From positions 1 to 36,619 of the forward strand of contig NZ_MTAV01000126.1 of NCBI RefSeq assembly GCF_002154695.1: a stretch of DNA of 36,619 nt, in the 5' to 3' direction. The number at the start of each line of letters is the position of its first letter. Positions within the stretch are counted from its first letter, which is position 1. The translations under genes and the position numbers were made by a program. The DNA comes from Nostoc sp. T09. GTDB lineage: Bacteria > Cyanobacteriota > Cyanobacteriia > Cyanobacteriales > Nostocaceae. Below, piece by piece: positions 4,871 through 29,483 of the stretch. The notes under the pieces are model-generated. The model was not told the DNA's origin, did not search any database, and saw only the letters and a program-made list of their open reading frames with translations.

Positions 4871-4900
4871 TTCTACATTCCAGTTGGGAATTGATAATAT

Positions 4901-4922
4901 GTAATTAGCGATGGCTAATTAC
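4901..4922. terminator. Hairpin after the HtrA-type gene
   Basis: GTAATTAGC 4901-4909 and GCTAATTAC 4914-4922 form a perfect 9-bp stem with a GATG loop, 30 bases past the stop codon. There is no strong T-run, so it may end or simply stabilise the transcript. Confidence 0.4.
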
Positions 4923-5176: not shown

Positions 5177-5710
5177 ATGGCTCAATTAGTGCCAATTATT
5201 CAATTAGGTAACCCCATACTGCGCCAACAAGCCACCTTGATTGATAATATTCAAGACCAGGATATCCAAAACCTGATTGACGATTTATTGGCAACCGTTG
5301 CTCAAGCTAATGGTGTGGGAATTGCTGCGCCACAAATCGCAGAATCATATCGTTTATTTATTGTGGCATCCCGTCCTAATCCTAGGTATCCCAACGCCCC
5401 AGAAATGGCACCGACTGCCATGATTAATCCCAAAATTATTGCCCATTCCACTGAAGTAGTTAAAGGTTGGGAAGGTTGTTTGAGCGTTCCCGGTATTAGG
5501 GGATTCGTTCCCAGGTATCAGGCAATTGAAGTTGAATATACCGATCGCAATGGCAAATTACAACAACAAGAATTAACTGATTTTGTCGCGCGGATTTTTC
5601 AACACGAATATGACCACCTCGATGGCATCGTGTTTGTAGATCGCTTGGAGAGTAATCAGGACATGATTACAGAGCAGGAATACCAACAACGTATAGTTAA
5701 CAATACTTAA
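5177..5710 (+). CDS. def: Peptide deformylase
   Basis: Removes the formyl group from the N-terminal methionine of new proteins, using a metal held by one Cys and two His. The 177-residue protein has all three family motifs: GVGIAAPQ (46-53), EGCLS (99-103, metal ligand C101) and QHEYDHLDG (HEYDH 143-147). ATG 5177 is chosen over the upstream TTG 5150 because AAGGAG (5163-5168) precedes it at normal spacing and the protein then starts MAQLVPIIQLGNPILR, as usual for the family. Cyanobacteria often have more than one deformylase; nothing here tells which copy this is. Confidence 0.95.
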   Translation: MAQLVPIIQLGNPILRQQATLIDNIQDQDIQNLIDDLLATVAQANGVGIAAPQIAESYRLFIVASRPNPRYPNAPEMAPTAMINPKIIAHSTEVVKGWEGCLSVPGIRGFVPRYQAIEVEYTDRNGKLQQQELTDFVARIFQHEYDHLDGIVFVDRLESNQDMITEQEYQQRIVNNT

Positions 5711-5751
5711 CCGAAAATAGTTCTCAAGAATGAAGCTGTAAACCGAAGCTC

Positions 5752-5790
5752 AGGTTATATTTAACCTATTGTTAACCTTTGGCTTAATTC
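5752..5790 (+). promoter_or_regulatory. Pho-box-like triple repeat before the HMA-module cluster
   Basis: TTTAACCT 5760-5767, GTTAACCT 5771-5778 and CTTAATTC 5783-5790 repeat the TTAA core at 11- and 12-base steps. Cyanobacterial Pho boxes (SphR sites) are tandem YTTAAYYW octamers spaced by 3 bases. The first two fit well and the third is looser. AGGTTA 5752-5757 with TAACCT 5762-5767 also makes an inverted repeat. The block ends 13 bases before the ATG at 5804, which is tight for a promoter. Confidence 0.35.
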
Positions 5791-5803
5791 AGCTATCGGG
5801 TAA

Positions 5804-6889
5804 ATGACCAATACTATTAGTAGTCGCGACAGGTTAAGTCCGCAGCCGCAAGAAACTTCTGGCTTAATCTCTGCTCAGAGTGAGAGCGATGAAAGAAAAC
5901 TGAATACTGACAGCAGTGTAACAGAGGCACAGTCAAAAGGGAGAGTTTCTCTGGAGGGATTACGAATAGTTCATGCCAGCAATGGGCGTGTGCGCATCCG
6001 CGCTCAAGAGAGTGGCTTGGAATCCCAACTAGAGGCTATATCCCAATGCTTACAGCAACAGAACGGAGTCAAGGAAATAACTGTTAATCAGCAGACAGGT
6101 AGTTTGGCGATCGCATTTGATCCCCATCAGCTGTCATTACCGCAGATATTAGAGAAACTTGAAGAATTTGGCATTTATCAAATTTCTGCTGATGAGTCAC
6201 TCAGTAAGGAAGATCTGTTTGCTGAATGGAAATCTGTGGATTTTTGGAAACAGCAAACAATTTCCTTGATTCCCTTGATGACAGGGTTAGCAGTCACAGG
6301 CGGACTGGGGATCAGCGGTGTAGCATCAATTCCCGTCTATATGATTGCGGCAAATGCAACTCGTTGGGTAATTGGTTCTATAGAATCCGAAATGTCGGGC
6401 GCAGAAACCAGCACTAGCAAATCTCCACAAGTCTCATCATCAGAAATAGACAGCAAATCAGCATCCTCTGACAAAATTGCTTATAGTGTTGTCCATGCAA
6501 TTCCCGGACGGATTAGACTTCATGTGCCTTCAATCGCCAAAGATCGAGCCTATGGTAGACGACTAGAAAGGCTACTGAAAACGGATGCACAAGTAACCAG
6601 CGTGCGCATAAATTATAGTGCTGCATCGGTAGCGATCGCCTATCAGTCGAGTGAGATTAGCCTAGCCCATTGGGTAAACTTAATGGAATTGGCTTTACAA
6701 ACGCACCCGCCTACCAATCCGATCAAGATAACAGAACCGCAACCTATTCCAGAAGAAGGAATTCAGTCAACTGAAACTCCTGAAGACAAAAGCCTAGAGA
6801 TATCAATATGGGCAAATCTGAAGCCTAACACCTTGTCTTATTCTTTAGCCTTTATGGCGAACTTTCCTTTAGGGACATTTCCAGAATGA
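5804..6889 (+). CDS. Two HMA-like modules with a hydrophobic segment (HMA2-type protein)
   Basis: The function is unknown. The 361-residue protein has an N-terminal module at about 52-128 (RIVHASNGRVRIRA, then VNQQTGSLAIAF) and a hydrophobic stretch at about 154-188 (LIPLMTGLAVTGGLGISG). A second module follows at about 223-285 with the signature AYSVVHAIPGRIRLHVP, a YGRRLERLLKTD helix and a strand VRINYSAASVAIAY. This is the ferredoxin-like fold of the heavy-metal-associated superfamily (the HMA_2 type, as I recall) without the metal-binding CxxC; only one Cys is present, at SQCLQQQ. The same module recurs in the next two genes and at 10541. It follows def by 93 bases and probably begins a new transcript. 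No strong ribosome binding site precedes the ATG. Confidence 0.75.
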   Translation: MTNTISSRDRLSPQPQETSGLISAQSESDERKLNTDSSVTEAQSKGRVSLEGLRIVHASNGRVRIRAQESGLESQLEAISQCLQQQNGVKEITVNQQTGSLAIAFDPHQLSLPQILEKLEEFGIYQISADESLSKEDLFAEWKSVDFWKQQTISLIPLMTGLAVTGGLGISGVASIPVYMIAANATRWVIGSIESEMSGAETSTSKSPQVSSSEIDSKSASSDKIAYSVVHAIPGRIRLHVPSIAKDRAYGRRLERLLKTDAQVTSVRINYSAASVAIAYQSSEISLAHWVNLMELALQTHPPTNPIKITEPQPIPEEGIQSTETPEDKSLEISIWANLKPNTLSYSLAFMANFPLGTFPE

Positions 6890-6904
6890 GAGGGGAGGTA
6901 ACTA

Positions 6905-7600
6905 ATGAAGGGTGCAACATCGCAAATGGGAGCGTACCCCAGCGAAAAATCTATTGATACCAACAACCACGCTGCTAGGGAATTTTACAGCATTACTTAT
7001 GCACTTCCCGGAGAAGTAGGATTTTGTATACCCAGGATTACTGAAGATCTAAACTATCTCCAATGCCTGCTAGAAGTGATAGAAGCAGAACCTTGGGTAG
7101 TTAGCCAGCAAGTGAATTACACTGCTGGGTCAATTGTGATTACCTACAAACCTGGGGTAATATCGGATGTGGAAATGCGATCGCATTTTGCCGATCTGTT
7201 ACAATCTGCCAGAGATACAGAAGTCGTAACAAAGCAAACAGCCAATTACCACCACCAGTCTCAGCCTGATAGTGAGACTCTCCCAACTGAGCAATATCCC
7301 AAAGTAGCCTATACCATTGCCCATGCAATTCCCGGACGGGTACGGTTTCATGTACCTCGAATTGCCTCAGATCCCCAATATGCTCAATCTTTAGAAGCTT
7401 TACTCAAAGCAGATCCGGCAGTAACCAGTGAGCGAGTGAATCGGAATGCGGCATCAATTGTGATTACCTATAAAACTGTCAAGGATTCTCAGAAACGAAT
7501 GCAAAACATCTGGGAAACAATCGTATCCCATTTAGCGAATCTGATTCAATCTGCTAGCGATCGCGCAATGACGAACAAACACGCCTCCAGCAGAATTTGA
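6905..7600 (+). CDS. Protein of two HMA-like modules (HMA2-type)
   Basis: The 231-residue protein consists almost wholly of two copies of the module. The first, about 27-95, is divergent (YSITYALPGEVGFCIP, then VNYTAGSIVITYKPG). The second, about 134-195, is canonical (AYTIAHAIPGRVRFHVP, YAQSLEALLKADPAV, NAASIVITYK). No membrane segment is visible, so it may be soluble or bind a membrane partner. Two cysteines occur, but neither forms CxxC. It starts 15 bases after the previous stop with GGGGAGG in between, so the two are probably co-transcribed and co-translated. The second module is very close at DNA level to the second module of the preceding gene (both contain CATGCAATTCCCGGACGG), which points to recent duplication. 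Confidence 0.75.
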   Translation: MKGATSQMGAYPSEKSIDTNNHAAREFYSITYALPGEVGFCIPRITEDLNYLQCLLEVIEAEPWVVSQQVNYTAGSIVITYKPGVISDVEMRSHFADLLQSARDTEVVTKQTANYHHQSQPDSETLPTEQYPKVAYTIAHAIPGRVRFHVPRIASDPQYAQSLEALLKADPAVTSERVNRNAASIVITYKTVKDSQKRMQNIWETIVSHLANLIQSASDRAMTNKHASSRI

Positions 7601-7618
7601 CACAAAAAAATAACCATC

Positions 7619-7660
7619 AGCCAACCAATCTCATCAGATTGGGGGCTATTTTGCTCTTTT
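7619..7660 (+). terminator. Rho-independent-type terminator
   Basis: AGCC..CCAATCT (7619-7631) pairs with AGATTGG..GGCT (7636-7647) around a short loop, followed by T-rich sequence (ATTTTGCTCTTTT). It lies between the two-module gene and the ATPase gene. The ATPase may therefore be expressed partly by read-through or from its own promoter. Confidence 0.6.
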
Positions 7661-7706
7661 AAGTCAGAGTCATCAAGTTTCATCAACTCTATCTGAGAGA
7701 CAAGGA

Positions 7707-10010
7707 ATGGTAAAACCTAGGGTTCAATTAGCATCACCGCCTACGCCAATAGTGCCTGAGATTGTCGAGAAGCATCACGAGAACGTTGCTTTAGTCAAAG
7801 AACAGAATGGAAAAGTTACGTTCACCGACAACAACGGACACAACCGCAGGCAGATTACCCAAGTTGCTTACAGCATTGTTCATGTCACACGAGGAAGGAT
7901 ACGGTTTCGCGTGCCTCGGTTACGCCACGATCGAGACTATGCTCAACGTCTCCAAGCATTGCTGGAAGCAGATTCTTTAGTTATAAGTGCGCGGATCAAG
8001 CCAGCGGCGGCGTCGCTAGTTGTGACTTATCAACCTAGACAAATGTCAGAGTCCAAGATGCGATCGCATTTGATTCATCTGATCTTGACTACTAGCGATC
8101 CCACAATAGTCATCACAGTTGTAAATAAACCAGCGATTACGCAATCTTCAACCGATACAGAAAATTCCTGGCCTGGTTTACAACTTTCTGCTGTCGCTAC
8201 TGGTTTAGCGGTGCTAGGAGGGCCGTTAGGATTATCGATTCCACCAATTATGGTAGCGGGAACTATTGCTCTAGCAACCTTACCAGTTCTTCAAAGAGCA
8301 TTAGTAGGAATTACAGCACAGCGCAAACTCACGATCGACTTTTTGGATTTAATGGCGATCGCTATTACTACCGTCCAAGGTCATTTTCTCACGCCATCGC
8401 TGATGCTGAGTTTAATTGAAGTTGGGGAGAACATTCGCGATCGCACTGCTCGTTCTTCCAAACTCCAAACTTTGGATTTACTCAATTCTTTAGGGCAGTT
8501 TGTTTGGGTAGAACGCAATGGCGAGAAACAACAAATCCCTATCCAAGATGTACTGCGAGGCGATACAGTTATTGTCTATCCTGGCGAGCAAGTCCCAGTA
8601 GATGGTACTATCTTGCGGGGTAAAGCTTTGCTGGATGAGCAAAAACTCACTGGTGAATCCATGCCAGTTTTGAAAAAGAAGGGACAAACGGTTTTTGCTT
8701 CTACCTTGGTGCGCGAGGGACGGATTTATATTCAAGCTGAATGGGTAGGCAATGATACTCGTGCTGGACAGAGTATTAAATTAATCCAAGAAGCACCTGT
8801 CCACGATACGCGCATGGAAAACTATGCCACAAAAATTGCTGAAAGAGCAGTGGTGCCAACTTTGCTACTAGGAGCAGCCGTATTTGCCGCAACTCGTAAC
8901 CCAATACGGGCAGCTAGTGTACTGACTCTAGACTTTGCTACAGGTATTCGAGTATCTGTACCGACTACAGTTTTAGCAGCACTTACCTATGCAGCCAAGC
9001 ACGGCATTCTCATCCGTAGTGGACGGGCATTAGAACAGCTAGCCGCAGTTGACACGATTGTGTTTGATAAAACAGGCACTCTAACTAAAGGAGAAGTGAC
9101 TGTTATTGGTGTGGAAAGTCTCAATCCAGCAACGTCAACTACGCGAGTACTGGAATTAGCAGCAGCGGCCGAACAACGACTGACGCACCCAGTAGCCGAA
9201 GCCATAATTCGTTATGCCGAAGCTAAGAAAGTGACAATTCCCAACCGCCAGAAATGGAACTATCAACTCGGTTTGGGAGTGCAAGCAGAAATTGACGGCG
9301 AGACTGTTTACGTAGGTAGCGATCGCTTTTTACGTCAGCAAGGCATTGAAATGGCACAGCAAAATGGCCATTCCAAGCGCTCAGCTTCAATGATTTATGT
9401 AGCTAGCAACGGTCAACTTCAAGGTAAAATCAAATATAGTGACATTCTGCGTAAAGAAAGTCGGGAAGTAATTAACCAGTTATTGACAGTCGAAGGTGTA
9501 GAAGTTCATATGCTCACCGGAGACAATAGGCAAACAGCCAATACAGTGGCCGCAGAACTAGGGATACCATCGGCAAATACTCATGCCGAAGCTTTCCCCG
9601 AACAGAAAGCCGCAGTTGTTCGTGCACTACACGAACAAGGTAAGACAGTGGCATTTGTTGGGGATGGGATTAATGATTCGCCAGCTTTAGCCTACGCTGA
9701 TGTTTCCGTGTCCTTTGCCAATGGTTCGGAAATTGCCCGCGAAACCGCAGATGTAGTGCTGATGGAGAATAATTTGCATGGTTTACTAGAGGCGATCGCG
9801 ATCGCGCGCCAAGCCAAGCAATTAATTAACCAAAATACAGGTATTGTTGCTGTTCCTAACTTAGGAGCATTATTCATAGCCGTTATTTTTGGTTTAAATC
9901 CCCTAGCTGCAACCGTAGTCAACAACGGTTCAACCGTAGTCGCAGGCATCAACGGTTTGCGCCCAATTTTAAAACATTCACCAAAGAAAGCTCTACCATC
10001 GGCAAGATGA
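7707..10010 (+). CDS. Cysteine-free P1B-like P-type ATPase with N-terminal HMA-like module
   Basis: A 767-residue membrane pump. One HMA-like module lies at 53-110 (AYSIVHVTRGRIRFRVP). Membrane segments are at about 160-195, 205-235, 380-430 and 712-750. The catalytic parts are all present: LTGES 314-318 (actuator), DKTGT with phospho-acceptor D454, the SHP-like THP at 493-495, TGDN at 604-607 and GDGINDSPA 652-660. In normal P1B heavy-metal pumps the sixth membrane segment has CPC, CPH or SPC; here the equivalent place reads DFATGIRVSVPTT (409-421) with no Cys. I find no Cys anywhere in the protein. It is probably an active ATPase, but metal specificity cannot be read from the usual residues and the substrate is unknown. 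Neighbours share the same N-terminal module. Confidence 0.88.
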   Translation: MVKPRVQLASPPTPIVPEIVEKHHENVALVKEQNGKVTFTDNNGHNRRQITQVAYSIVHVTRGRIRFRVPRLRHDRDYAQRLQALLEADSLVISARIKPAAASLVVTYQPRQMSESKMRSHLIHLILTTSDPTIVITVVNKPAITQSSTDTENSWPGLQLSAVATGLAVLGGPLGLSIPPIMVAGTIALATLPVLQRALVGITAQRKLTIDFLDLMAIAITTVQGHFLTPSLMLSLIEVGENIRDRTARSSKLQTLDLLNSLGQFVWVERNGEKQQIPIQDVLRGDTVIVYPGEQVPVDGTILRGKALLDEQKLTGESMPVLKKKGQTVFASTLVREGRIYIQAEWVGNDTRAGQSIKLIQEAPVHDTRMENYATKIAERAVVPTLLLGAAVFAATRNPIRAASVLTLDFATGIRVSVPTTVLAALTYAAKHGILIRSGRALEQLAAVDTIVFDKTGTLTKGEVTVIGVESLNPATSTTRVLELAAAAEQRLTHPVAEAIIRYAEAKKVTIPNRQKWNYQLGLGVQAEIDGETVYVGSDRFLRQQGIEMAQQNGHSKRSASMIYVASNGQLQGKIKYSDILRKESREVINQLLTVEGVEVHMLTGDNRQTANTVAAELGIPSANTHAEAFPEQKAAVVRALHEQGKTVAFVGDGINDSPALAYADVSVSFANGSEIARETADVVLMENNLHGLLEAIAIARQAKQLINQNTGIVAVPNLGALFIAVIFGLNPLAATVVNNGSTVVAGINGLRPILKHSPKKALPSAR

Positions 10011-18759: not shown

Positions 18760-19362
18760 ATGTCCAGTTATCTCAGTGAACTCTACGAGTTTGATAGCTA
18801 TGAAAAGGCTGAAAGCAAGTTTCTCACGCCTTTTCAACGAAAAGTTTTAATCAAAAATCTGCAAGTAGATTTGCAACCAGAATATCGCCGTCGCATTGAA
18901 ATTATGTTGCTTGCAGATAGAGGTAAATCTCAAGTTCAAATTTGCCAGATCTTAGGCTGCTCTCCGCATATGGCAAGGTATTGGATTGGAATGGCTAAAT
19001 CAGGTTTAGCTCACAATTGGCACGAACAACCAATAGGCAGACCACGGAGCGTTAACGAGGAATACTTGGAACGATTGAAGGAATTAGTCAACCATAGCCC
19101 ACGTGATTATGGTTATCCATTTCATTGCTGGACGGCTCATTGGTTAAGCAAACATTTAGCAAATGAATTGGGCGTTGAAATTAGCGATCGCCATATCAAT
19201 CGCTTACTCAAACAAATGGGGTTGTCTACGAAACGAAAACATCATATTGCTCAATCAGCAACTGCTAACACCAAGGATTCTGGAATTATCATTGATGACC
19301 TGCAATTACCCTGTGAGTCTAGTTTCCAATGGTCACTTAATCTAAGTGGAACAAATAACTAA
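18760..19362 (+). CDS. IS630-like helix-turn-helix protein, no DDE catalytic domain
   Basis: The 200-residue protein has the DNA-binding half of an IS630/Tc1-type transposase. An HTH lies at about 56-80 (SQVQICQILGCSPHMARYW). After a GRPRS hook (93-97) a second winged helix follows at about 115-155 (RDYGYPFHCWTAHWLSKHL, SDRHINRLLKQMGL). It then stops after a short tail (IIIDDLQLPCES) where a transposase would begin its DDE nuclease domain. It ends 21 bases before the exporter gene, so the two are probably one operon. A domesticated transposase fragment serving as regulator is the most likely role; this is inference. A truncated transposase remnant is the alternative, but the frame is clean. 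Confidence 0.75.
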   Translation: MSSYLSELYEFDSYEKAESKFLTPFQRKVLIKNLQVDLQPEYRRRIEIMLLADRGKSQVQICQILGCSPHMARYWIGMAKSGLAHNWHEQPIGRPRSVNEEYLERLKELVNHSPRDYGYPFHCWTAHWLSKHLANELGVEISDRHINRLLKQMGLSTKRKHHIAQSATANTKDSGIIIDDLQLPCESSFQWSLNLSGTNN

Positions 19363-19383: not shown

Positions 19384-22300
19384 ATGCCTTCAGAATTTTC
19401 CCAAACTAAACTGGCTGAACAACTCACCCAAACCTTGGGTGCAAATCTTTCAGAACAGGAATTACTAGACTCTGTCAAAGCAATAAAAATTCATGAACCA
19501 CAAATCGCCAAATTGTTCTGGCGAACAGCAGGCGCAGAACCGGGAATTTACTTGGTTTTAACAGGTAAAGTCAGATTGCTAGATACATCCGATAATTTAA
19601 TAGCTACCTTTTCAGCAGGAGATTCATTTGGTCATTTGACTCTATTTCCAGAAGCAGAATTTAGCCTTTACAATGCTAGAGCTTCTGCTAATTTAAAGCT
19701 TGGTTATCTTCCAGGCGATGTGTTGCAAGGCTTAATTAGCAGATACCCCCATATTCGGGAGCATCTGTATCACCAAGCAGAAGCATGGGATTTATTTTTG
19801 TTATGTACTCAGAATTCTTCAGATCCTCGCATCGTCTCTGTAGAGGAAATGCTGAAAGTTTTGTCTCTATTTCAACGACATGATCTCGAAATTGGCTACT
19901 TACTACCACCACTTACTCAAGACAGCAAGTTATGGCTGTTACGGCGTGGGGAATTACTGCATTCAGATGGTCGCACCCTGACCCCTGGGATAATTTATAC
20001 CCCTTCCGGTCGCAGTAGTAGAGGCGGTGGTTGGCAAGCAATTCAACCAACAGTAATTTACAGTCTGAGTCATTTAGACTGGCAAACAGCACTACAACAT
20101 CTACCTCAATTAACAGAGTTTGTTACTTCTGATGCCAAGGATTCGGAAGAAGAGGATGAAGAAGATACACTGTCAGAAGATGAGGAAGTTCTCAGATATA
20201 GAGAAAATTTCCCCTTAGATTCTCGTTCTCGTACTCCTACATCTTATTCATTCCCTACTCGATCGCATCAAACACAAAGAAGAGCATCCAGACGCCGGGC
20301 CTACTTTCCCAACCCAACTGTCACCATCAGCCATTGGTGGGGGCGGATTAGCAAGCGTTATCCATTCTTTCAACAGCAAAGTGCTTCTGACTGTGCGGCG
20401 GCTTGTTTGGTAATGATTGGACGCTATTGGGGTAAAAATTTTAGTTTAAATCGCCTACGAGATATAGCTAATACCAGCCGCAGTGGTGCATCATTGCGGG
20501 GTTTAGCAGCAGCCGCAGAGACTATTGGCTTTTCTACACGACCTGTAAGAGCTAGTTTCGACAAATTAGCACAACAACCGCTGCCTGCGATCGCTCATTG
20601 GCAAGGAAAGCATTACATCGTTGTTTATGAAATCACCAAAAAAGGTGTAATTGTAGGTGACCCAGCGATTGGTCAACGTACCCTTACTCCCAGCGAATTC
20701 ATAGCCAACTGGACTGGTTATGCGTTGTTATTACAGCCCACATCTGAACTAAAAGCAACTGAGGAAGCGAATACACCATTTTGGCAATTCTTTGAGTTAG
20801 TCAAACCACATTGGTTAGTCTTGCTAGAAGTGGTGATTGCTTCGGTGTTTATTCAGGTATTTGGGCTAGTGACACCACTATTAACCCAGCTACTTTTGGA
20901 TCGAGTAATTGTGCAAGGTAGTACTCTCACCTTACATGCTGTGGGCTTAGGTTTATTAATTTTTGGGTTGTTCCGAGTTGCTATCAATGGACTGCGGCAA
21001 TATTTGTTAGATCACACGGCAAACCGAATTACTTTGTCGATGATTGTGGGTTTTATTAAACACACTTTCCGGTTACCTTTATCCTTTTTTGAGTCTCGTT
21101 ACGTCGGTGATATTATTTCGCGTCTCCAAGAGAATCACAAGATTCAACGCTTTTTAACTGGTGAATCACTATCAATCTTTCTAGATTTGTTAACAGTGTT
21201 CATCTATATAGCGTTAATGTTTTGGTACAGCTGGAAAATGGCATTGTTGGTATTGGTAATTTTGCCACCTATAATATTGATTACTGTATTAGCAACGCCA
21301 TTTTTACGTCGCATATCTAGAGAAATATTTAATGCGATCGCTGCTGAAAGTAGCTACCTGATTGAAGCTCTGACAGGTATTAGTACTATTAGATCGATGG
21401 CAATTGAGCAGACAGTACGCTGGAAATGGGAGGAACGTTTACATCAGTCTATTAAAAAAGGCTTTTCTGGGCAAATTATTAGTAATCAACTGCAAATTGC
21501 CAGCGCCACTATCGAAACTGTAGCAACTACTAGCTTGCTCTGGTTTGGGGCTTGGCTGGTGATTCAAAATCAACTAACAATTGGGCAGTTAATTGCTTTT
21601 AATATGTTGCTTGGTAATGTAATTCGCCCATTTCAACGTTTAGCTGTGCTATGGAATCAATTGCAAGAAGTGATGATTTCTAGTGAGCGAATTAATGATG
21701 TATTAGAAACCGAACCTGAAGAAGATTTACAAACTTCACCAAAGCAGTTTCTTCCCAGATTGCGCGGTTATATCCGGTTTGAAAACGTCACATTTCGCTA
21801 TCATCCAGAAAGTGAGCTAAATGTTTTACAAAATATCAACTTTGAGGTAAAAGCAGAGCAAATAGTCGCAGTAGTAGGACGTAGCGGTTCTGGTAAAACT
21901 ACCCTTTCTAAGTTAATTTTAGGCCTTTATCCTGCCACCGAAGGCAAAGTTTTAGTTGACAATTACGATTTAACAAGTATAGCTTTAAGGTCGCTGCGTT
22001 CTCAAATCGGTGTTGTGGATCAAGATACCTTTTTGTTTGGCGGTACAATTCGCGAAAACATTAGCATTGCTCATCCAGAAGCCACTTTAGAAGAAATTAT
22101 CGAAGCAGCACATTTAGCAGGAGCAGATGAATTTATTCAGCAATTACCAATGGGGTATGAGACCCCAATTGGTGAAGGTGGTGGACTACTATCTGGTGGA
22201 CAGCGACAGCGTTTAGCAATTGCTCGTGCTTTGTTAGGAAATCCCTCCATCTTATTATTAGATGAAGCCACCAGTCATCTTGATGCTGAATCAGAACGCA

Positions 22301-22503
22301 TCATTCAAAACAACCTGAAAACAATAACTAAAGAACGTACCACACTCATTATTGCTCATCGCCTTTCCACCATCCGCAATGCTGATTTGATTTTAGTTTT
22401 AGACAAGGGTGCATTAGTTGAAAGCGGTTCTCATGAAGAATTAATCAAAACAAAAGGTTATTACTACTACCTCAACCAACAACAATTGGCTCAAACAGTT
22501 TGA
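19384..22503 (+). CDS. Peptidase C39-containing ABC exporter with N-terminal cNMP-binding-like domain
   Basis: A 1039-residue peptide exporter that cuts double-glycine leaders and pumps the product out. Domains in order: a cyclic-nucleotide-binding-like domain at about 45-130 (GIYLVLTGKVRLLD, AGDSFGHLTLFPE); a very acidic linker at 249-268; the C39 peptidase at about 326-450 with C337, H410 and D426; membrane segments at about 475-740; and the ATPase at about 790-1035. The ATPase has Walker A GRSGSGKTT 832-840, signature LSGGQ 936-940, D960-E961 of Walker B and H992. All catalytic residues are present. The architecture is like HetC/SunT-type exporters of filamentous cyanobacteria. No hetP follows, so HetC itself is unlikely. 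Likely substrates are the three double-glycine peptides at 28018-29483. Confidence 0.93.
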   Translation: MPSEFSQTKLAEQLTQTLGANLSEQELLDSVKAIKIHEPQIAKLFWRTAGAEPGIYLVLTGKVRLLDTSDNLIATFSAGDSFGHLTLFPEAEFSLYNARASANLKLGYLPGDVLQGLISRYPHIREHLYHQAEAWDLFLLCTQNSSDPRIVSVEEMLKVLSLFQRHDLEIGYLLPPLTQDSKLWLLRRGELLHSDGRTLTPGIIYTPSGRSSRGGGWQAIQPTVIYSLSHLDWQTALQHLPQLTEFVTSDAKDSEEEDEEDTLSEDEEVLRYRENFPLDSRSRTPTSYSFPTRSHQTQRRASRRRAYFPNPTVTISHWWGRISKRYPFFQQQSASDCAAACLVMIGRYWGKNFSLNRLRDIANTSRSGASLRGLAAAAETIGFSTRPVRASFDKLAQQPLPAIAHWQGKHYIVVYEITKKGVIVGDPAIGQRTLTPSEFIANWTGYALLLQPTSELKATEEANTPFWQFFELVKPHWLVLLEVVIASVFIQVFGLVTPLLTQLLLDRVIVQGSTLTLHAVGLGLLIFGLFRVAINGLRQYLLDHTANRITLSMIVGFIKHTFRLPLSFFESRYVGDIISRLQENHKIQRFLTGESLSIFLDLLTVFIYIALMFWYSWKMALLVLVILPPIILITVLATPFLRRISREIFNAIAAESSYLIEALTGISTIRSMAIEQTVRWKWEERLHQSIKKGFSGQIISNQLQIASATIETVATTSLLWFGAWLVIQNQLTIGQLIAFNMLLGNVIRPFQRLAVLWNQLQEVMISSERINDVLETEPEEDLQTSPKQFLPRLRGYIRFENVTFRYHPESELNVLQNINFEVKAEQIVAVVGRSGSGKTTLSKLILGLYPATEGKVLVDNYDLTSIALRSLRSQIGVVDQDTFLFGGTIRENISIAHPEATLEEIIEAAHLAGADEFIQQLPMGYETPIGEGGGLLSGGQRQRLAIARALLGNPSILLLDEATSHLDAESERIIQNNLKTITKERTTLIIAHRLSTIRNADLILVLDKGALVESGSHEELIKTKGYYYYLNQQQLAQTV

Positions 22504-22658: not shown

Positions 22659-24197
22659 ATGCCAACTCAATCTTACAATTCGTCGGTTCTTACTACACCA
22701 CAACAACAGCTAGAATCAGCTAGCAATTTTCCGGCAAATCATTATCATAACTTATCAGAAAATGATGCCAAAGATTGGTTTTACGGTACTGAGGAACTGC
22801 TAGATGCTTTACCCAGAGTTTGGACACGCTCTTTACTGTATCTAATTTTAGGCTTTGCGGGAATTGCATTACCTTGGTCGATGCTATCGAAAGTTGATGA
22901 AACAGGAAGCGCTAGAGGACGGATAGAACCCAAAGGATCAGCACAAAGATTGGATGCAGCAGTACCTGGAAACATCATTGCAGTGAAGGTAAAAGAAGGC
23001 CAAACCGTAGCAGCAGGACAGGTGTTAGTAGAACTAGAATCTAATGATTTGCGAACAAATTTGCAGCAGGCGCAAACAAAGCTGGAAGGTGAACAAAGCC
23101 GATTGGCGCAGTTAGATTTAATTAAAAATCAAGTGATGCTGTCGATTAACGTTCAAGAGCAGCAAAACCGCGCTCAAGAGTTAGAAAAAATGTCTCAAGT
23201 TCAACAGGCACAGCAAAATGTTGATGCCAAACAAAGTACCTATAACTTACAAAAATTAGAAAATCAGGCTCAAGTCGATCAAGCTAAACAAAATATTAAT
23301 AGTACGCAAAATGCCTACACATTAAGTAAAACTCGTTTGAGTAGAGATTTAGCAGAAGTTAAACGCTTTCGTCAACTTTGGAAGATGGGAGTAGTACCGC
23401 AAATCAAGGTTGTTGAATTGCAAAAACTTGGCGATGAAAGCCAAAAATTGCAGATTGCAGCTGAATCTGAGCAAAAACAGGCGAATTTGCGCCTAAAAGA
23501 ACAACAAAGCCGTTATCAAGCATTTATTAGTCAAATACAGGCAGATATTAATCAAGCGAAATTGCGTTTACAAGAGCAGCAAAGTAGCTATCAAAGTGTG
23601 ATTCATACTGGTCAATTAGCTTTATTAAAAAATCAAGAACAATTAAAGGATTTACAAACGCAAATTGGTTCTTTAAAATCAGAAATTTCTCAAACTAAAA
23701 GTCAAATTCTAGCTTATAACTTTCAGTTAGATCAACGAATAGTTCGCTCTCCAATTGATGGGATAATTTTTCAATTACCTATTCAAAAACCTGGAGTTGT
23801 TGTCCAACCAGGTCAAATGGTTGCCCAAATTGCGCCTAAAAATTCTGCTTTTATCCTTAAAGCTCAGATGGCTAGCAATCAAAGTGGATTTTTGCGCATT
23901 GGTATGCCAGTGAAAACTAAATTTGACGCCTATCCTTTTCAAGATTATGGAATAGTTACAGGACGAGTAAGCTGGATATCTCCTGACTCAAAAATTCAAG
24001 AAACTAACGCTGGAAAAATTGAAACTTATGAATTGGATATCACTTTAGATAATCCTTATATTCAGGCAGCAAACAAACGTATTACTTTAACACCGGGTCA
24101 GACAGCAACCGCAGAAGTAGTTATTCGACAGCGTCGAATAATCGATTTTATTATAGACCCATTTAAGAAGTTGCAAAAAGGAGGATTAGAACTTTAG
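22659..24197 (+). CDS. HlyD-family membrane fusion protein of the exporter
   Basis: The periplasmic adaptor that links the ABC exporter to an outer-membrane channel. The 512-residue protein has one membrane helix at about 58-77 (LLYLILGFAGIALPWSML) and the biotinyl-like half VPGNIIAVKVKEGQTVAAGQ. A long glutamine-rich coiled coil spans about 125-360, and the second half carries IVRSPIDGIIFQLPI plus a beta-barrel end (ITLTPGQTATAEVVIRQRR). Order and length are typical of HlyD partners of C39 exporters. It lies 155 bases after the exporter gene, beyond a terminator. No TolC-type gene is in the window. Confidence 0.93.
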   Translation: MPTQSYNSSVLTTPQQQLESASNFPANHYHNLSENDAKDWFYGTEELLDALPRVWTRSLLYLILGFAGIALPWSMLSKVDETGSARGRIEPKGSAQRLDAAVPGNIIAVKVKEGQTVAAGQVLVELESNDLRTNLQQAQTKLEGEQSRLAQLDLIKNQVMLSINVQEQQNRAQELEKMSQVQQAQQNVDAKQSTYNLQKLENQAQVDQAKQNINSTQNAYTLSKTRLSRDLAEVKRFRQLWKMGVVPQIKVVELQKLGDESQKLQIAAESEQKQANLRLKEQQSRYQAFISQIQADINQAKLRLQEQQSSYQSVIHTGQLALLKNQEQLKDLQTQIGSLKSEISQTKSQILAYNFQLDQRIVRSPIDGIIFQLPIQKPGVVVQPGQMVAQIAPKNSAFILKAQMASNQSGFLRIGMPVKTKFDAYPFQDYGIVTGRVSWISPDSKIQETNAGKIETYELDITLDNPYIQAANKRITLTPGQTATAEVVIRQRRIIDFIIDPFKKLQKGGLEL

Positions 24198-24267: not shown

Positions 24268-25035
24268 ATGTCCAAAATCATGAATGTATCTGCTCTAGAG
24301 CTTCTGCATCATATGAAGCTTACCTGTCAAATTCCTAATGTATTGGAAGCAATAGCTACTCGCAGAATTATTGCCGAAGCAGTTAAAAAAGCAGAAATTA
24401 CAGTAGAGCAAAAAGAACTTCAGCAGGCAGCAGATAGTTTGCGGCTAGCTAACCGACTCGTAAAAGCTGATGACACCTGGGCTTGGCTACAAAAACATTA
24501 CCTTTCTCTAGATGATTTTGAAGAAATAGCCCAAACTAACCTGCTTTCTGCAAAGTTAGCAAATCATTTATTTGCAGATCAAGTTGAAAAATTCTTTGTT
24601 GAACATCAACTTGATTTCGTTGGTGCTATCACCTATGAAGTGGTTTTGGATGAAGAAGACTTAGCTTTAGAATTGTTTTATGCCTTGCAAGAAAATGAAA
24701 TTACCTTCCCTGAAATTGCTCGCCAATATATTCAAGAACCAGAGTCACGCCGCACTGGTGGATATCACGGGATACGCTACCGGAGGGATTTTAAACCGGA
24801 AATTGCTGCGGCAGTTTTTGCTGCTCGTCCGCCTCAGGTTCTCAAGCCAATTATTACTCAAACAGGAGTTCATCTAATTTGGGTTGAAGAAGTTATCAAG
24901 CCTCAATTAAATGAGCAGTTGCGCTTAAAGATACTAGGAGATTTGTTTTCTGCTTGGATAAAACAACAACTAGAAGAAGTTAAAGTTATGGCACAGCTTG
25001 AACTTGATACTCAAAAGTTAGCAAAACCTGCTTAA
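24268..25035 (+). CDS. Parvulin-type peptidyl-prolyl isomerase (SurA/PpiC-like)
   Basis: The 255-residue protein has an N-terminal helical part (VLEAIATRRIIAEAVKKAEI, DSLRLANRLVKADDTWAWL) like SurA-type chaperones. A parvulin domain at about 118-212 follows (TYEVVLDEEDLALELFYALQ, TGGYHGIRYRRDF, QTGVHLIWVEEV). No signal peptide is seen, so it may act in the cytoplasm or leave with the exporter. It is 70 bases after hlyD on the same strand. Such isomerases recur next to C39 exporters in cyanobacteria (from memory). A role in folding or presenting the peptide substrate is inferred. Confidence 0.85.
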   Translation: MSKIMNVSALELLHHMKLTCQIPNVLEAIATRRIIAEAVKKAEITVEQKELQQAADSLRLANRLVKADDTWAWLQKHYLSLDDFEEIAQTNLLSAKLANHLFADQVEKFFVEHQLDFVGAITYEVVLDEEDLALELFYALQENEITFPEIARQYIQEPESRRTGGYHGIRYRRDFKPEIAAAVFAARPPQVLKPIITQTGVHLIWVEEVIKPQLNEQLRLKILGDLFSAWIKQQLEEVKVMAQLELDTQKLAKPA

Positions 25036-25399: not shown

Positions 25400-26518
25400 T
25401 TACTCTAATGTTGTGTAAATATCCTCTAAGCCAGGATTGAGGTAGGGGCATTGTAATTTAATTTGCTGTTGGGCAAAATGCTTGCGAATTAATAGCATAC
25501 GGTTTTCTGTTGACTCGTTTCCTTGTTCCCATGCTTCTAGCAATCCATTGGTAACAATTTGACAGCGGTTTAATCCAAAACTTTCCTTGTCAGAAAACTT
25601 GTTGTTAGGTTCCTCTGCTAGAGCAAGTCCTGGTGCTAACAATTTTGTAAATAGAGGTACTTCTTCTCCAAAATAAGACTGATGCTCTGCATAAACTGAT
25701 TGCAGCACTGGCCAAAGGTTTGTATAGTAGCCTTTCTCGATGTAAAGTACTGCTGTGTCATAGCGATTATAGCCAGCAGGATTGTATAGCGCCTTAAAGG
25801 TAAAAGGAATAGGAATTTTGTTCAGTTGTTGTGTAAGGCTACCCATAACTGCCACTGCACCCTCAGGGCTTAAATTGAAGTAGACGCGTACTAGTTGGCG
25901 ATCGTGTCCTTTATATATAGAACTGTACTGCCCTGAATTACCAACTGCTATATAAAATCCGTTTTGTGTCAAATTAGAGGGCATTTTGATTGCTACCACA
26001 TCAGCAATAGTTGCATTAACTTGCTGAGGATGAAGATGGCGATCGCGTTCTATATATAAAGTTAATTCGCCGCTTTTTACCGCTAAAGTACCGTCGCTCT
26101 CTTCCCTCAGCACTTGCCAACCATCATCAAAATAGCCTTTACCACTGTTAGCTGAATGCAAGCGATCGTAAAAATCAACATCTACCCCTAAAAAGGTATT
26201 GTTCTCCAAATTATCGAGCATTGTTGTATCAATTTCTGCTGCATCGCGAACCAGAATATTTCGCAAAGCACCGTTATAGTAAATGTGGTAGAGAAAATTA
26301 GTTAAATTCGATTGCAAAATTTTGTACTGTAGTTGCAATGGTAATTGCTGAAAGCGGGTTACAATCTCATCTGGTAATTCTAAAAATTTGTAATCTGGAT
26401 GGCTAATACCAAAGTTAGATTGAATTTCAATCTTAGTAGCGATATCTTGCAGAATATCTAATAGTTGCTTTGTGGAAAAATTTAACGACTCCTGTGGAAG
26501 CGAATCTAGCAATTGCAT
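25400..26518 (-). CDS. HopA1-family protein, candidate phospho-Ser/Thr lyase of a RiPP dehydratase
   Basis: The 372-residue protein matches the HopA1 effector family as I recall it: FLYHIYYNGALRN, FLGVDVDFYDRLHSANSGKG, VRVYFNLSPEGAVAVMGSLT, and KALYNPAGYNRYDTAVLYIE near the middle. HopA1-like proteins are the proposed lyase partner in class V lanthipeptide systems (LxmY with kinase LxmK), removing phosphate from Ser/Thr to leave dehydro residues. ATG 26518, 22 bases after the kinase stop and preceded by AGGCAGG, is preferred to TTG 26581, which would overlap the kinase gene. It is co-oriented with the kinase and three peptide genes. No cyclase gene is near. The biochemical role here is inference from family and neighbours. 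Confidence 0.75.
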   Translation of the reverse strand: MQLLDSLPQESLNFSTKQLLDILQDIATKIEIQSNFGISHPDYKFLELPDEIVTRFQQLPLQLQYKILQSNLTNFLYHIYYNGALRNILVRDAAEIDTTMLDNLENNTFLGVDVDFYDRLHSANSGKGYFDDGWQVLREESDGTLAVKSGELTLYIERDRHLHPQQVNATIADVVAIKMPSNLTQNGFYIAVGNSGQYSSIYKGHDRQLVRVYFNLSPEGAVAVMGSLTQQLNKIPIPFTFKALYNPAGYNRYDTAVLYIEKGYYTNLWPVLQSVYAEHQSYFGEEVPLFTKLLAPGLALAEEPNNKFSDKESFGLNRCQIVTNGLLEAWEQGNESTENRMLLIRKHFAQQQIKLQCPYLNPGLEDIYTTLE

Positions 26519-26540
26519 AATTGCCTGCCTATAACTAAAA

Positions 26541-27716
26541 TTACTTAATTGCACGCAAAGCTGGGCGATGCGCAAGTTCAACGGCTGTTACACCAAATAC
26601 AGTTGGTATTGATTGTTCCGGACGACACAACAAACTTTTAGCAACTTGGAGCATACATATACCTTGATTCCCAAAGGTTTTATGGTGTTGTAGCGTTGCT
26701 ATAATCGTTAAAACCAAGCCTAAACCTGTAAATTGTACGACTCGCGACAAAAAATCAGAGCGTATTTTTAAAATTTCTGGGAAGTTCTTCAAATAAGCTT
26801 TCATCAAAGCCGCAATCGAAGGTTGAACCAATTCCAAAGGTGTTTTAGCGAGGCGTAATGTCTCTTCTAAACTAATAGTTTTACTAGTCATCAAACTCAG
26901 CAACCATGCTTGTAGGTAGCTAGCAATGAGCATTCCTAAATCGTAAGCTGGATCTCCCCAAGTACATTTTTCCCAATCAATCAGACGAACTATATTCTTA
27001 GCTGATGATGCCTGCGAAACTTTTTCCTCCCAATTATTCGCTAGTAAAATATTGTTCAGCTTTAGGTCATTATGGGTAAGACAAAAGCTTTCTATGGTGT
27101 CTATTAACTGTGCGATCGCCTGTCTTAAACTATCGTAGCGCTGATAAACTGCAAAAAATTTCAAAGCATCAGTAGAAAGTGCGCTAAATAGTTCTGGAGT
27201 TAAGCGATTTACACTCTGAACGAACTTTAAATCATTGTTAACAAATAAGCCTGATTTAAATAACTCTTCATATTGATAGTTATCTCTAGTTAAGGAATGA
27301 ATTAAAGCTAAATTTGCTCCAATACTAGCTGCTATCTTGGTGGGAAATATATTCTCCTTAGTGTAGAAATCTGCTAGATCGCGGTAGTCATTGAGATAAT
27401 TGAAAACAATGATTGCGTTTTCAGCATCAAAATAAATAGCCTCAGAGACAGAGAAACGGATGTGGCTTAATTGTGGAAATGTTTGTAACATTGATTGAAT
27501 TTGCCACTCTCTTAAAAACTCACCTGCTGTTTTTCCGTTACTGCTACGTCGCTCTTGCTTAATTAGGAGTTGTCTTCCCTCTGGTAAAGTAAGCAATAAG
27601 TTGAAATTTTTGGCAGGTTTTATCTCAATTTTGCTCATACTTTTATCATCATGAGTACAGATATCTCTATCAATCAGGTACTCAAACAGATTTTGAGGAC
27701 TTAATAAAAGTTCCAT
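26541..27716 (-). CDS. APH-like kinase, candidate Ser/Thr kinase of a RiPP dehydratase
   Basis: The 391-residue protein has the aminoglycoside-phosphotransferase fold. A possible ATP lysine is K53 in LLIKQERR; the Brenner motif is THNDLKLNNILL with D217 and N222; and the metal aspartate is D247 in RLIDWEKCTWGDPAYDLGM. A mostly helical C-terminal part follows (about 265-391). The active-site motifs look intact. Alone it could be an antibiotic or small-molecule kinase. Directly upstream of a HopA1-family gene and beside double-glycine peptides, it matches the kinase half of the split dehydratase of class V lanthipeptides and thioamitides. The pairing is established for those families; its action on these peptides is inferred. 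Confidence 0.78.
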   Translation of the reverse strand: MELLLSPQNLFEYLIDRDICTHDDKSMSKIEIKPAKNFNLLLTLPEGRQLLIKQERRSSNGKTAGEFLREWQIQSMLQTFPQLSHIRFSVSEAIYFDAENAIIVFNYLNDYRDLADFYTKENIFPTKIAASIGANLALIHSLTRDNYQYEELFKSGLFVNNDLKFVQSVNRLTPELFSALSTDALKFFAVYQRYDSLRQAIAQLIDTIESFCLTHNDLKLNNILLANNWEEKVSQASSAKNIVRLIDWEKCTWGDPAYDLGMLIASYLQAWLLSLMTSKTISLEETLRLAKTPLELVQPSIAALMKAYLKNFPEILKIRSDFLSRVVQFTGLGLVLTIIATLQHHKTFGNQGICMLQVAKSLLCRPEQSIPTVFGVTAVELAHRPALRAIK

Positions 27717-28017
27717 AGGTTTGGTAATTACATAATTTTACAAAAATAGTTTTTGTTTGATTGAATAAATATTCACTTAATTTAACTCATATTTGATTTT
27801 TGAAATAAAACGTAGTTCATGCCAAATACAACCTGATAATTAGACTCTTCCAAATATCAAATTTGATTGTTATATTAGCTGTTAAACTATGTTCAGACTT
27901 TTTTGTTAATAGATATAAGAAAACCTGTTATCGGTTAGATAGTTAAATATTTTTCTAAAAATAACTAATAAACAAACCGATACAGGTAGCGTGTTCTTTT
28001 ACAAGTCAAACCTTAAA
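27717..28017. other. A/T-rich intergenic stretch before the kinase gene
   Basis: About 300 bases, strongly A/T-rich, hold no gene I can support. The start codon at 27716 is preceded only by A/T-rich sequence without a strong ribosome binding site. It may contain the promoter of the kinase-HopA1 pair. Confidence 0.4.
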
Positions 28018-28290
28018 TTATAAAGGAGTTGTAGGAGGATACGTCCCAATCTGACGTTGTTGAGGTGCGAGAAACAGCTGAACTAGGGACACAATATTAT
28101 AAATTGCAAATCCCACTAACGCATACTCCAAAACCTTAACACCCAAGTTAAGAAATTCATTGAAATTATAGCCTTCACCTCCATGTACAGACATGGAATC
28201 TATTTCAGTTAAATCATCAAGGAAACTTTCGGAGTTTTCTAGCTTCCTAGAGTTAGAATGGTGCAAATCAAAGATTACGATCCTAGTCAT
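28018..28290 (-). CDS. Double-glycine-leader peptide B (candidate RiPP precursor)
   Basis: A 90-residue peptide. The leader ends ESFLDDLTEIDSMSVHGG (GG 37-38), the C39-type cleavage motif. The predicted core of 52 residues is EGYNFNEFLNLGVKVLEYAL, then a hydrophobic stretch VGFAIYNIVSLVQLF and a tail LAPQQRQIGTYPPTTPL. It has no cysteine; Ser/Thr available for dehydration are S68, T83, T87 and T88. It is exactly the same length as the next peptide (28422) and about 42 of 90 residues match without gaps, but the last 17 differ almost completely. Only a weak ribosome binding site precedes ATG 28290. Substrate status for the exporter is strongly suggested; modification by the kinase/HopA1 pair is inference. 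Confidence 0.8.
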   Translation of the reverse strand: MTRIVIFDLHHSNSRKLENSESFLDDLTEIDSMSVHGGEGYNFNEFLNLGVKVLEYALVGFAIYNIVSLVQLFLAPQQRQIGTYPPTTPL

Positions 28291-28321
28291 TGTCTGTATT
28301 TGAACTCATTATTAGTTTGGG

Positions 28322-28357
28322 TAGCAGAATAAAGTTTTAAATTACTTTATTCTGCTA
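28322..28357. other. 14-bp perfect hairpin between the two precursor genes
   Basis: TAGCAGAATAAAGT 28322-28335 and ACTTTATTCTGCTA 28344-28357 are exact complements around an 8-base loop. No T-run follows on the minus strand, so it looks more like a processing or stability element than a plain terminator. It could set the ratio of the two peptides. Confidence 0.55.
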
Positions 28358-28421
28358 TCTAATCATCCTTCTCAGAATTTAACTTTTGTTTACCTAATAC
28401 TAGGTAATAACTGGCTAGATA

Positions 28422-28694
28422 CTAGAGGGTAATACTGGTACCGCCACCACCATTATTGCCACCACCAGTAGTGCTAAAGGATTTAACTAAAGACACAATG
28501 TTAGTGATTCCAAATCCAACTAAGCCGTACTCAAGAACCTTATAACCCAAGTCAGAAAATTCTGGGAAATATGCACCTTCACCACCATGTACAGCTGTGG
28601 TGTCCACATCGGTTAGATCGTTGAGAAAGCTTTCAGAATCTTGGAATAATTCAGCACCAGCAAGATTTAGTTCAGAAACTTTGATATTAGCCAT
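28422..28694 (-). CDS. Double-glycine-leader peptide A (candidate RiPP precursor)
   Basis: A 90-residue peptide with leader ending ESFLNDLTDVDTTAVHGG (GG 37-38). The core of 52 residues starts EGAYFPEFSDLGYKVLEYGL, continues with hydrophobic VGFGITNIVSLVKSF and ends in a Gly/Ser/Thr tail STTGGGNNGGGGTSITL. It has no cysteine. Nine Ser/Thr lie in the core, six of them in the last 17 residues (74-90), which makes the tail the best target for dehydration. ATG 28694 has AGGAG eight bases upstream, a stronger site than its paralogue at 28018, so it is probably the better expressed of the two. The conserved hydrophobic helix would suit a membrane-active peptide. Confidence 0.82.
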   Translation of the reverse strand: MANIKVSELNLAGAELFQDSESFLNDLTDVDTTAVHGGEGAYFPEFSDLGYKVLEYGLVGFGITNIVSLVKSFSTTGGGNNGGGGTSITL

Positions 28695-29125
28695 GATAGT
28701 TTCTCCTGGGAAATTGGAAGAAGGTTTATTAGCGTGTAAGATTAATCTTTAATTTCTTAACCTTACACTTGCTATTTTTAGCTATCAAAATTCAAAAATC
28801 AAGGCAATTATCTGGTTTGCATAGACACAAAAAGAACAGTTATGTCTTTTCTAAAATAAAAAATTTAATAGATATATCTTTAGTTAAATATCCTTAAAGA
28901 TTTTGCAGCGTTAGCGTAGCTTACCGTAGGTATCGGTCACAAACAACCGGGACTGGAGCAACTCTTGCCTGCTAGTGACTCGACGCTGAAAGAGAAAGAG
29001 CTAGTAGGGACATTAAATTACATTTGTACACAACGAACCCGACTTGCTTCGAGAGGTGCCTGTTCGGGATAAGAGCCGAGGCGCTCGCATTTAAATATTG
29101 ACGACTAAAAATAATTACTTTCAAT

Positions 29126-29153
29126 AAAAAAAGCAAGTTACTAAATAGCTTGC
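29126..29153 (-). terminator. Rho-independent terminator for the third peptide gene
   Basis: On the minus strand GCAAG (29153-29149) and CTTGC (29137-29133) form a stem, followed directly by seven T residues (29132-29126). Confidence 0.55.
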
Positions 29154-29205
29154 CTGATAGGATAGATAATATTTCTCAATATTTTTAGTTCACAAACATT
29201 AAATA

Positions 29206-29239
29206 CATCGTGCTAGCTTTAATTAGCCAAAGCACGATG
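29206..29239 (-). terminator. Hairpin after the third peptide gene
   Basis: CATCGTGCT 29206-29214 and AGCACGATG 29231-29239 are perfect 9-base arms. It lies 32 bases past the stop of the peptide gene at 29271 and upstream of the T-run terminator, so the two may act together. Confidence 0.5.
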
Positions 29240-29270
29240 ATTGAGTAGCACATTTATTTCCCAAAACTGA

Positions 29271-29483
29271 CTAAAAGAATTTAATGGTTATGGGATTTTT
29301 CTCTGGATCTCTGTTTGGGTCTTGAAGAGCTTGTATCAATTGGAATAATTTTATATCCCTCTGAGTCCAGTTGATTTTAACCTGTACCCCCCCAATTACA
29401 TTACTCATTTCTCTAGGCGTTAGCTCATCAAGAGAATTTAGGTTTTCCGTAGGATGAAGGTCTGGAATGGTTATACTCGCCAT
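29271..29483 (-). CDS. Double-glycine-leader peptide C, unrelated core
   Basis: A 70-residue peptide with a typical bacteriocin-type leader, LDELTPREMSNVIGG (GG 31-32), but a leader and core unlike peptides A and B. The predicted 38-residue core is polar: VQVKINWTQRDIKLFQLIQA followed by LQDPNRDPEKNPITIKFF. It has only two threonines, no Ser after the GG and no Cys, so it is a poor dehydratase substrate. It may be exported unmodified or act as a partner or signal. GGAGG precedes ATG 29483 with about 10 bases between. Two hairpins follow the stop codon, so it is probably transcribed alone. Confidence 0.75.
   Translation of the reverse strand: MASITIPDLHPTENLNSLDELTPREMSNVIGGVQVKINWTQRDIKLFQLIQALQDPNRDPEKNPITIKFF

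Follow-up and report, generated by a model that had tools for sequence, protein, structure and literature searches.

The dehydratases of the LxmKY type serve, in the descriptions available to us, Cys-containing precursors that form rings. According to a 2025 review, class V lanthipeptides have so far been found only in actinobacteria (PMC12328550). In cyanobacteria, the family combining HopA1, phosphotransferase and double-glycine (GG) peptides is already published as a bioinformatic family: the consulted passages of Eyles 2021 describe 570 cyanobacterial precursors in 183 clusters with HopA1 and a phosphotransferase, GG leaders, and variable C-termini with no conserved Ser, Thr or Cys (PMC8153245). 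A literature search, with most subscription papers and non-PMC preprints outside its coverage, returned no reported product of a cyanobacterial member. Here, we analyse such a pair in a stretch of 36,619 nucleotides of Nostoc sp. T09 (contig NZ_MTAV01000126.1, hereafter the window), where an APH-like kinase and a HopA1-family protein neighbour short GG-leader peptides. A first-pass annotation of this DNA had proposed that the two enzymes act together and yield a dehydrated peptide rather than a lanthipeptide. The comparisons presented below support this proposal. We read the region as a locus for a ribosomally synthesized and post-translationally modified peptide (RiPP) with a dehydratase of the class V lanthipeptide type, whose product would be a thioether-free dehydropeptide (probability about 0.7). 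Computed homology, fold, catalytic residues, co-occurrence and a conserved Ser pair carry this reading.

The kinase and its HopA1 partner

The kinase gene (26541..27716, minus strand) encodes a predicted LanK-like peptide kinase of 391 residues with an APH fold. The protein matches the Pfam APH family (E = 7.3e-12) and contains the motifs THNDLKLNN and IDWE as well as K53, E70, H215, D217, K219, N222 and D247, in agreement with the intact active-site motifs first described. Its best NCBIfam model is NF038156 (LxmK; E = 1.4e-27), at 96.7 bits versus an equivalog cut-off of 315; by sequence it appears as a relative of LxmK and no equivalog.

The open reading frame (ORF) listed for HopA1 starts at TTG 26581, inside the kinase. 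A likelier start is ATG 26518, which gives a predicted LanY-like phospho-Ser/Thr lyase of 372 residues (25400..26518, minus strand). With this start the gene begins 22 bases after the kinase stop, as originally noted. The protein matches the HopA1 family PF17914 well above its cut-off (E = 1.4e-55; 188 bits against 22.7).

The residues required for elimination can be compared with those of CaoY, the cacaoidin lyase. In the consulted passages, K219A gave phosphorylated peptide only, R187A nearly abolished elimination and R229Q was inefficient, while Y236 corresponds to the catalytic Tyr of SpvC (PMC9486802). Mapped by spacing and by alignment with LxmY, in which the counterparts of all four residues are identical, CaoY K219, R187, R229 and Y236 would equal K242, R211, R252 and Y259 of the window protein, and all of these are present. 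H40 is present as well; its equivalence with CaoY His57 is a guess.

AlphaFold2 models of HopA1 and the kinase, based on 39 and 37 aligned sequences and with mean pLDDT values of 86.3 and 85.8, were compared with the Protein Data Bank (PDB). For each model the three best fold matches are LxmKY chains, which bears out the suspected likeness to LxmK and LxmY. HopA1 matches LxmY best at E = 3.4e-18 (9dk2_B), with template modelling (TM) scores of 0.63-0.66 by query length; P. syringae effector structures follow and then, weakly, class III synthetases. The kinase matches LxmK best at E = 2.7e-14 (9dk2_A; TM 0.68-0.74), with methylthioribose kinases next in the ranking, close behind. Taken together, the models argue that both proteins are homologues of the subunits of the lexapeptide dehydratase LxmKY. 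Below, T1 denotes the clade of HopA1 copies that includes the window and T2 its sister clade. A plain small-molecule kinase is an unlikely description of the T1 enzymes: LxmK is the best NCBIfam model for every scanned kinase and the best fold match.

Precursor peptides and a conserved Ser pair

On the minus strand, the order in the downstream direction is peptide C, peptide A, peptide B, kinase and HopA1, with the ORFs as the first-pass annotation placed them. Three GG-leader peptides had been claimed on the kinase strand. Two of them stand as one leader family, namely peptide A (90 residues; 28422..28694, minus strand) and peptide B (90 residues; 28018..28290, minus strand), the peptide gene nearest the kinase. 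When the profiles are built without rows from the window, A scores 99.3 bits on the A profile and B 69.6 bits on the B profile. Peptide C (70 residues; 29271..29483, minus strand) is a weaker member of uncertain relation. It reaches 18.1 bits (E = 0.0016) on the B profile without window rows and 16.4 bits, below the cut-off, on the Pfam type-A lantibiotic leader; its core resembles neither that of A nor that of B.

The leader of peptide A ends at Gly37-Gly38, and its core contains K71-S72-F73-S74. Among the A-type peptides (n = 62, from 21 loci, window included), Lys52 and Glu55 are each kept in 61/62 and Ser72 and Ser74 in 62/62 (window numbering); the selection of this set was blind to the Ser positions but required a helix motif ahead of them. 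No further core position of these peptides exceeds 0.67 Ser/Thr when weighted by locus. The codons of Ser72-Phe73-Ser74 lie at 28473..28481 (minus strand), and from the conservation we predict the two serines as the likeliest dehydration sites of peptide A.

Nine loci are orthologous to the window (L103-L110 and L112). Their A peptides read S-I-S, S-F-S, T-F-S or T-F-T, so that both hydroxyls are kept in 9/9 (L108 was read by eye). Exchange between Ser and Thr with the hydroxyl retained is the pattern expected of dehydration sites. Peptide B of the window differs, Leu-Phe-Leu replacing Ser-Phe-Ser. B-like peptides occur in seven of the nine orthologous loci and show L-F-[LI] as in the window, except for S-F-I in L110. 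Because the hydroxyls are absent from most B peptides of this group, B is suggested not to be modified at this place. The A and B cores have in common a conserved, partly hydrophobic stretch and appear to be homologous partners. A-type peptides occur in one to several copies per locus, and in 21/40 T1 loci a B-type gene precedes the kinase ORF by at most 305 bases.

Other peptide arrangements were also seen. The second T1 locus of Nostoc sp. T09 (L004) encodes six peptides in tandem that belong to this leader family, and five of these have Asn/Thr-rich cores; N-[ST]-x-N-A elements occur in the cores of five of the six (L004:8409-10024). Near PpiC genes of L051, L054, L064, L090 and possibly L166, there are leader-like peptides with cores such as TVYDGIN...TTYEG, which in L051, L054, L064 and L090 lie on the strand opposite to the kinase.

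Co-occurrence of the pair and the peptides

The sample consisted of 244 genomes drawn from the phylum, of which 37 contain PF17914. Seventy HopA1 places were read, including three in the genome of the window, and a kinase adjoins HopA1 on the same strand at 67 of them. The exceptions are L066 (no kinase), L098 (a single ORF) and L101 (a fragment). Two distant pairs from outside the order (L099 and L100) were left out of the T1 counts. A tree was inferred by a quick method with support from the Shimodaira-Hasegawa-like approximate likelihood ratio test (SH-aLRT), and the very long-branched row of L100 was included. T1 comprises 40 HopA1 copies from 30 genomes, window included. T2 comprises 26 copies from 26 genomes, one each, and forms one side of a branch with an SH-aLRT of 100. 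Within T1 the active sites are constant: the five checked HopA1 residues are kept in 40/40 Nostocales copies and all eight checked kinase residues in 39/39 kinases.

The leader-peptide profile matches 30 of the 244 genomes, and these are exactly the 30 that hold T1; 19 of them supplied the rows of the profile (window A and B included) and match by construction, while the remaining 11/11 match independently. No leader peptide was found in the 214 genomes without T1, among them three that contain T2 alone and four that contain HopA1 of another form, at up to 23 scored candidates per genome. For the genome of the window all 42 candidates were scored, and the eight matches all fall at its two T1 loci. 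Some matches elsewhere lie away from T1 loci (e.g. G199 contig 3 and G019 contig 14); the genomes concerned do contain T1. Kinase, HopA1 and peptides are thus co-conserved across genomes, the pattern on which the initial proposal depended.

At the level of loci, a search with a motif taken from own-genome peptides retrieved 102 sequences, every one on the kinase strand, from 35/40 T1 versus 0/26 T2 loci. The profile search placed at least one leader peptide in 37/40 T1 versus 0/26 T2 loci, with ten weak matches on the other strand; the peptides behind the A and B profiles came from these T1 loci, with K-S-[FY]-S as one criterion of their choice, which makes the T1 matches partly a matter of construction. 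Chance or artefact is ruled out by the co-occurrence together with the conservation of catalytic residues.

A second set was obtained by scanning a collection of 84,980 species genomes with a T1 HopA1 query. Of the 362 relatives, the best 80 were kept, including L128 and L129, whose sequence stretch is identical. All 80 loci encode a HopA1 with the five lyase residues, a count that leans to T1 because of this selection. Eight extra HopA1 copies, from second tandem pairs, lack the full residue set. A leader-peptide match at E <= 0.001 is present in 78/80 loci.

The predicted cores had been described as free of Cys, which is true of peptides A, B and C of the window. Across the sets, Cys occurs in 60/212 cores of set 2 versus 5/102 of set 1, after exclusion of 10/222 set 2 peptides that have no GG to split at. 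Among the motif-defined cores of set 2 it occurs in 1/40; outside these 40, it is also found in the A-like K-S-F-S core of L133 and in the B-like core of the window orthologue L110. Cys is therefore missing from the window cores and usually from those of the A/B subfamily, but its absence is not general.

Degenerate relatives of the pair

The T2 clade differs from T1 at the centre of the lyase. The catalytic Lys, retained in 40/40 T1 copies, is absent from 26/26 T2 copies (Gln in 22, Glu in three, His in one), and the Tyr is absent from 15/26. The T2 kinases keep K53, E70, H215, D217 and N222 in 26/26 and D247 in 24/26, with the HxDxK Lys in only 6/26. The T2 pair of the window's own genome lies on contig C183 (L005:7391-9901) and has 25 related copies. 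Its Pfam neighbours are an AMP-binding ligase, a 4HBT thioesterase, a chorismate-binding enzyme, UbiA and MenC, which we read as probable men (phylloquinone) genes. The ligase is near 14/26 and the thioesterase near 17/26 T2 loci, and both are near 0/40 T1 loci. A peptide substrate beside T2 was looked for, and no leader peptide was found at any of the 26 loci. Loss of the lyase Lys in a clade without adjacent peptides ties lyase catalysis to the peptides. On these sequence features T2 looks like a kinase or phosphotransferase whose lyase partner is silent.

In 15-16 T2 loci, short frames upstream of the kinase (e.g. L005:10043-10141) show conservation on both strands, a pattern suggestive of a conserved regulatory element in DNA or RNA. 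A further kind of pair, T3, lies just downstream of the T1 pair in L128/L129, L144, L156, L157, L159, L162, L167 and L174. Here the kinase catalytic Asp is replaced by Asn or Gly in 9/9 rows, and none of the eight HopA1 proteins read has the complete lyase set. Judged by these substitutions, T3 would be a tandem pseudoenzyme pair.

Ring-forming enzymes

The absence of a LanC or LxmX-like cyclase, noted at first sight, was upheld for the locus. No LanC lies near the pair; the only LanC match of the genome is on contig C108, in an ORF of 1119 residues. No second APH protein of the LxmX kind was found on contig C72, where the kinase is the sole Pfam APH match, although a very divergent LxmX could be missed by such a search. 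Neither a flavoprotein Cys decarboxylase nor a YcaO protein is present at the locus: PF02441 is matched twice in the genome, on contigs C177 and C52, and the only YcaO match is on another contig. Among the 30 T1 genomes, 12 have a LanC match and 18 have none, and 17 of the 18 LanC matches are in ORFs of 1088-1125 residues. Rings formed on A and B with the help of LanC or LanM are unlikely, given the 18/30 T1 genomes without a LanC match.

In one T1 locus, L095, HopA1 is followed on its own strand, after about 150 bases, by a LanM-type synthetase (4544-9089; DUF4135 and LanC by Pfam), and a leader peptide that contains Cys lies beyond. Members of this LanM-like protein family also occur in L136, L147 and L179 of set 2. 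These may be hybrid loci.

Proposed pathway and alternatives

From the computed features we infer a reaction and its sites, leader recognition, cleavage, export and a partnership of A and B. In the proposed pathway, the kinase would bind the leader of peptide A, and probably that of B, and phosphorylate Ser/Thr of the core. The HopA1 partner would then eliminate the phosphate to leave dehydroalanine or dehydrobutyrine, in peptide A most likely at Ser72 and Ser74; other cores are perhaps also substrates. Finally, the C39 exporter would cut after Gly37-Gly38 and export the core, and the product may act as an A/B pair. With no Cys in the A and B cores and no LanC near, a thioether-free dehydropeptide is the likely outcome.

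Several observations weigh against this pathway. The kinase scores far below the LxmK equivalog cut-off, and peptide B of the window has no Ser pair. The 40 motif-defined cores of set 2 comprise 29 S-[FY]-S, three S-I-S and one S-V-S, together with seven B-like ones. Three of the 40 T1 loci have no leader peptide, namely L039 (where HopA1 is close to a contig end), L066 and L094, and LanM-type genes stand in four T1 loci (L095, L136, L147 and L179). Since no more than 23 candidates were scored per genome, the absences are not exhaustive, and an exact co-occurrence can also arise from gain or loss of whole clusters. Furthermore, 23/26 T2 genomes also hold T1, so that T2 could act on peptides in trans.

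The peptides could instead remain unmodified, as GG-leader peptides akin to two-peptide bacteriocins, with the kinase/HopA1 pair modifying something else. The shared hydrophobic stretch of the A and B cores, which gives them the look of homologous partners, and the C39 exporter in 22/40 T1 loci would suit such peptides. However, T1 and the peptides match each other across genomes, all 102 motif-set peptides are on the kinase strand, the B-type gene sits close upstream of the kinase in about half of the T1 loci and the core Ser pair is invariant, which makes this explanation unlikely. Phosphorylation without elimination, HopA1 being a structural partner, is a conceivable state of the T2 clade, where most kinase residues are kept and the lyase Lys is lost; for the window it is very improbable, as its HopA1 and the T1 copies read keep the lyase residues.

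Dehydration might also be followed by a closure that needs no Cys, for example a lysinoalanine between core Lys52 and dehydroalanine at 72 or 74. The near-constancy of Lys52 (61/62) beside two invariant serines is what such a bridge would require. Nevertheless, Lys52 may be no more than a residue of a helix, the K..E stretch is missing from window orthologues with shorter A cores (e.g. L103-L107), and no closing enzyme was seen, and none was searched for; we consider this closure quite unlikely.

We therefore retain the dehydratase reading. A more specific version of it is tentative, and we would put it at clearly less than even odds: a two-component, thioether-free dehydropeptide in which A carries dehydroalanines at K-S-[FY]-S, B of the window group mostly lacks sites and is the partner left unmodified there, the product is linear or closed without Cys, and the T2 pair is a kinase with a silent lyase. 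If the dehydratase reading is true, a Cys-free cyanobacterial branch would show the dehydratase at work to make dehydro residues for their own sake, and genome-mining filters that demand a core Cys would miss a subfamily. It also supplies precisely predicted sites for testing and, in the paralogue that has lost the lyase Lys, a natural control.

Neighbouring genes

Plus-strand genes converge on the kinase/HopA1 pair. They encode a helix-turn-helix (HTH) protein (18760..19362; Pfam HTH_32, 1.1e-10), a C39 peptidase-ABC exporter with an N-terminal cyclic-nucleotide-binding domain (19384..22503; Pfam C39 2.9e-41, ABC 2.1e-35, cNMP 8.2e-08), an HlyD-type exporter adaptor (22659..24197; Pfam) and a PpiC-type peptidyl-prolyl isomerase (24268..25035; Pfam Rotamase 4.4e-10; TIGR04500 2.1e-19, below cut-off). 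The exporter named in the first-pass annotation is thus present by Pfam, export itself being predicted. Within flanks of about 8 kb, or up to the contig ends, a PpiC gene is near 27/40 T1 versus 0/26 T2 loci and is hence co-conserved with the pair. HlyD is near 20/40 versus 0/26 and the C39 exporter near 22/40 versus 2/26. By protein clustering, 56 loci across the two T1 sets contain the HTH family, versus no T2 locus.

An aldo-keto reductase was considered as part of the window system and rejected; there is none among the scanned window proteins, and such genes are near 6/40 T1 loci of set 1. L004 holds an aldo-keto-reductase-like gene and a second PpiC gene. The reductase-like protein (L004:3914-4954), with 33 homologous frames in set 2, stands beside some T1 pairs and has a conserved GINYFFYSSDLH segment. 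What we take to be the usual Asp and Tyr of aldo-keto reductases are seemingly absent from this segment, and the protein may presumably be no ordinary reductase. An M16 peptidase-domain family occurs in 22 loci of the two T1 sets (e.g. L154:770-2461). According to the source passage, the pristinin cluster also holds an M16 peptidase (PMC7794033).

Comparison with known systems

The comparisons below refer to the consulted passages of the cited papers. LxmKY (PDB 9dk1/9dk2/9dk3; PMC12141560) shares with the window a kinase-lyase pair, provides the best fold match for both proteins and has the same lyase residues. In contrast, lexapeptide-type precursors contain Cys and form rings (PMC9486802), whereas peptides A and B have no Cys, carry GG-type leaders and are accompanied by a C39 exporter. 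A similar picture emerges with CaoK/CaoY of cacaoidin: counterparts of CaoY K219, R187 and R229 are present in the window HopA1, but cacaoidin has an aminovinyl-methylcysteine (AviMeCys) ring (PMC9486802) and A and B have no Cys. Of the class V traits, the locus shows a LanK-type kinase and a LanY/HopA1-type lyase with its catalytic residues; a Cys core for (methyl)lanthionine, LanC, an LxmX-like APH protein and a flavoprotein decarboxylase are absent from it. In the thioamitide pathway, the APH-like kinase and HopA1-like protein TsaC/TsaD are needed for Thr dehydration and resemble the window pair. However, thioamitide clusters carry YcaO (PMC8153245), whose only match in this genome is on another contig.

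The window locus very probably belongs to Family 1A (PMC8153245). Both are cyanobacterial, Family 1A exclusively so, and both combine an adjacent kinase (phosphotransferase) and HopA1 with conserved GG leaders and several non-identical precursors per locus. C-termini of Family 1A are described as having no conserved Ser, Thr or Cys, unlike the A-type subfamily with its invariant Ser72 and Ser74; this trait is no condition of membership. The type-B precursors in Liang 2022, all of them cyanobacterial, were collected among Cys-containing ORFs (PMC9486802), and Cys-free peptides such as A and B would have been passed over because of this requirement. To the published passages, the present analysis adds the invariant Ser pair, the A/B arrangement, the co-occurrence at genome level and the degenerate T2 and T3 pairs.

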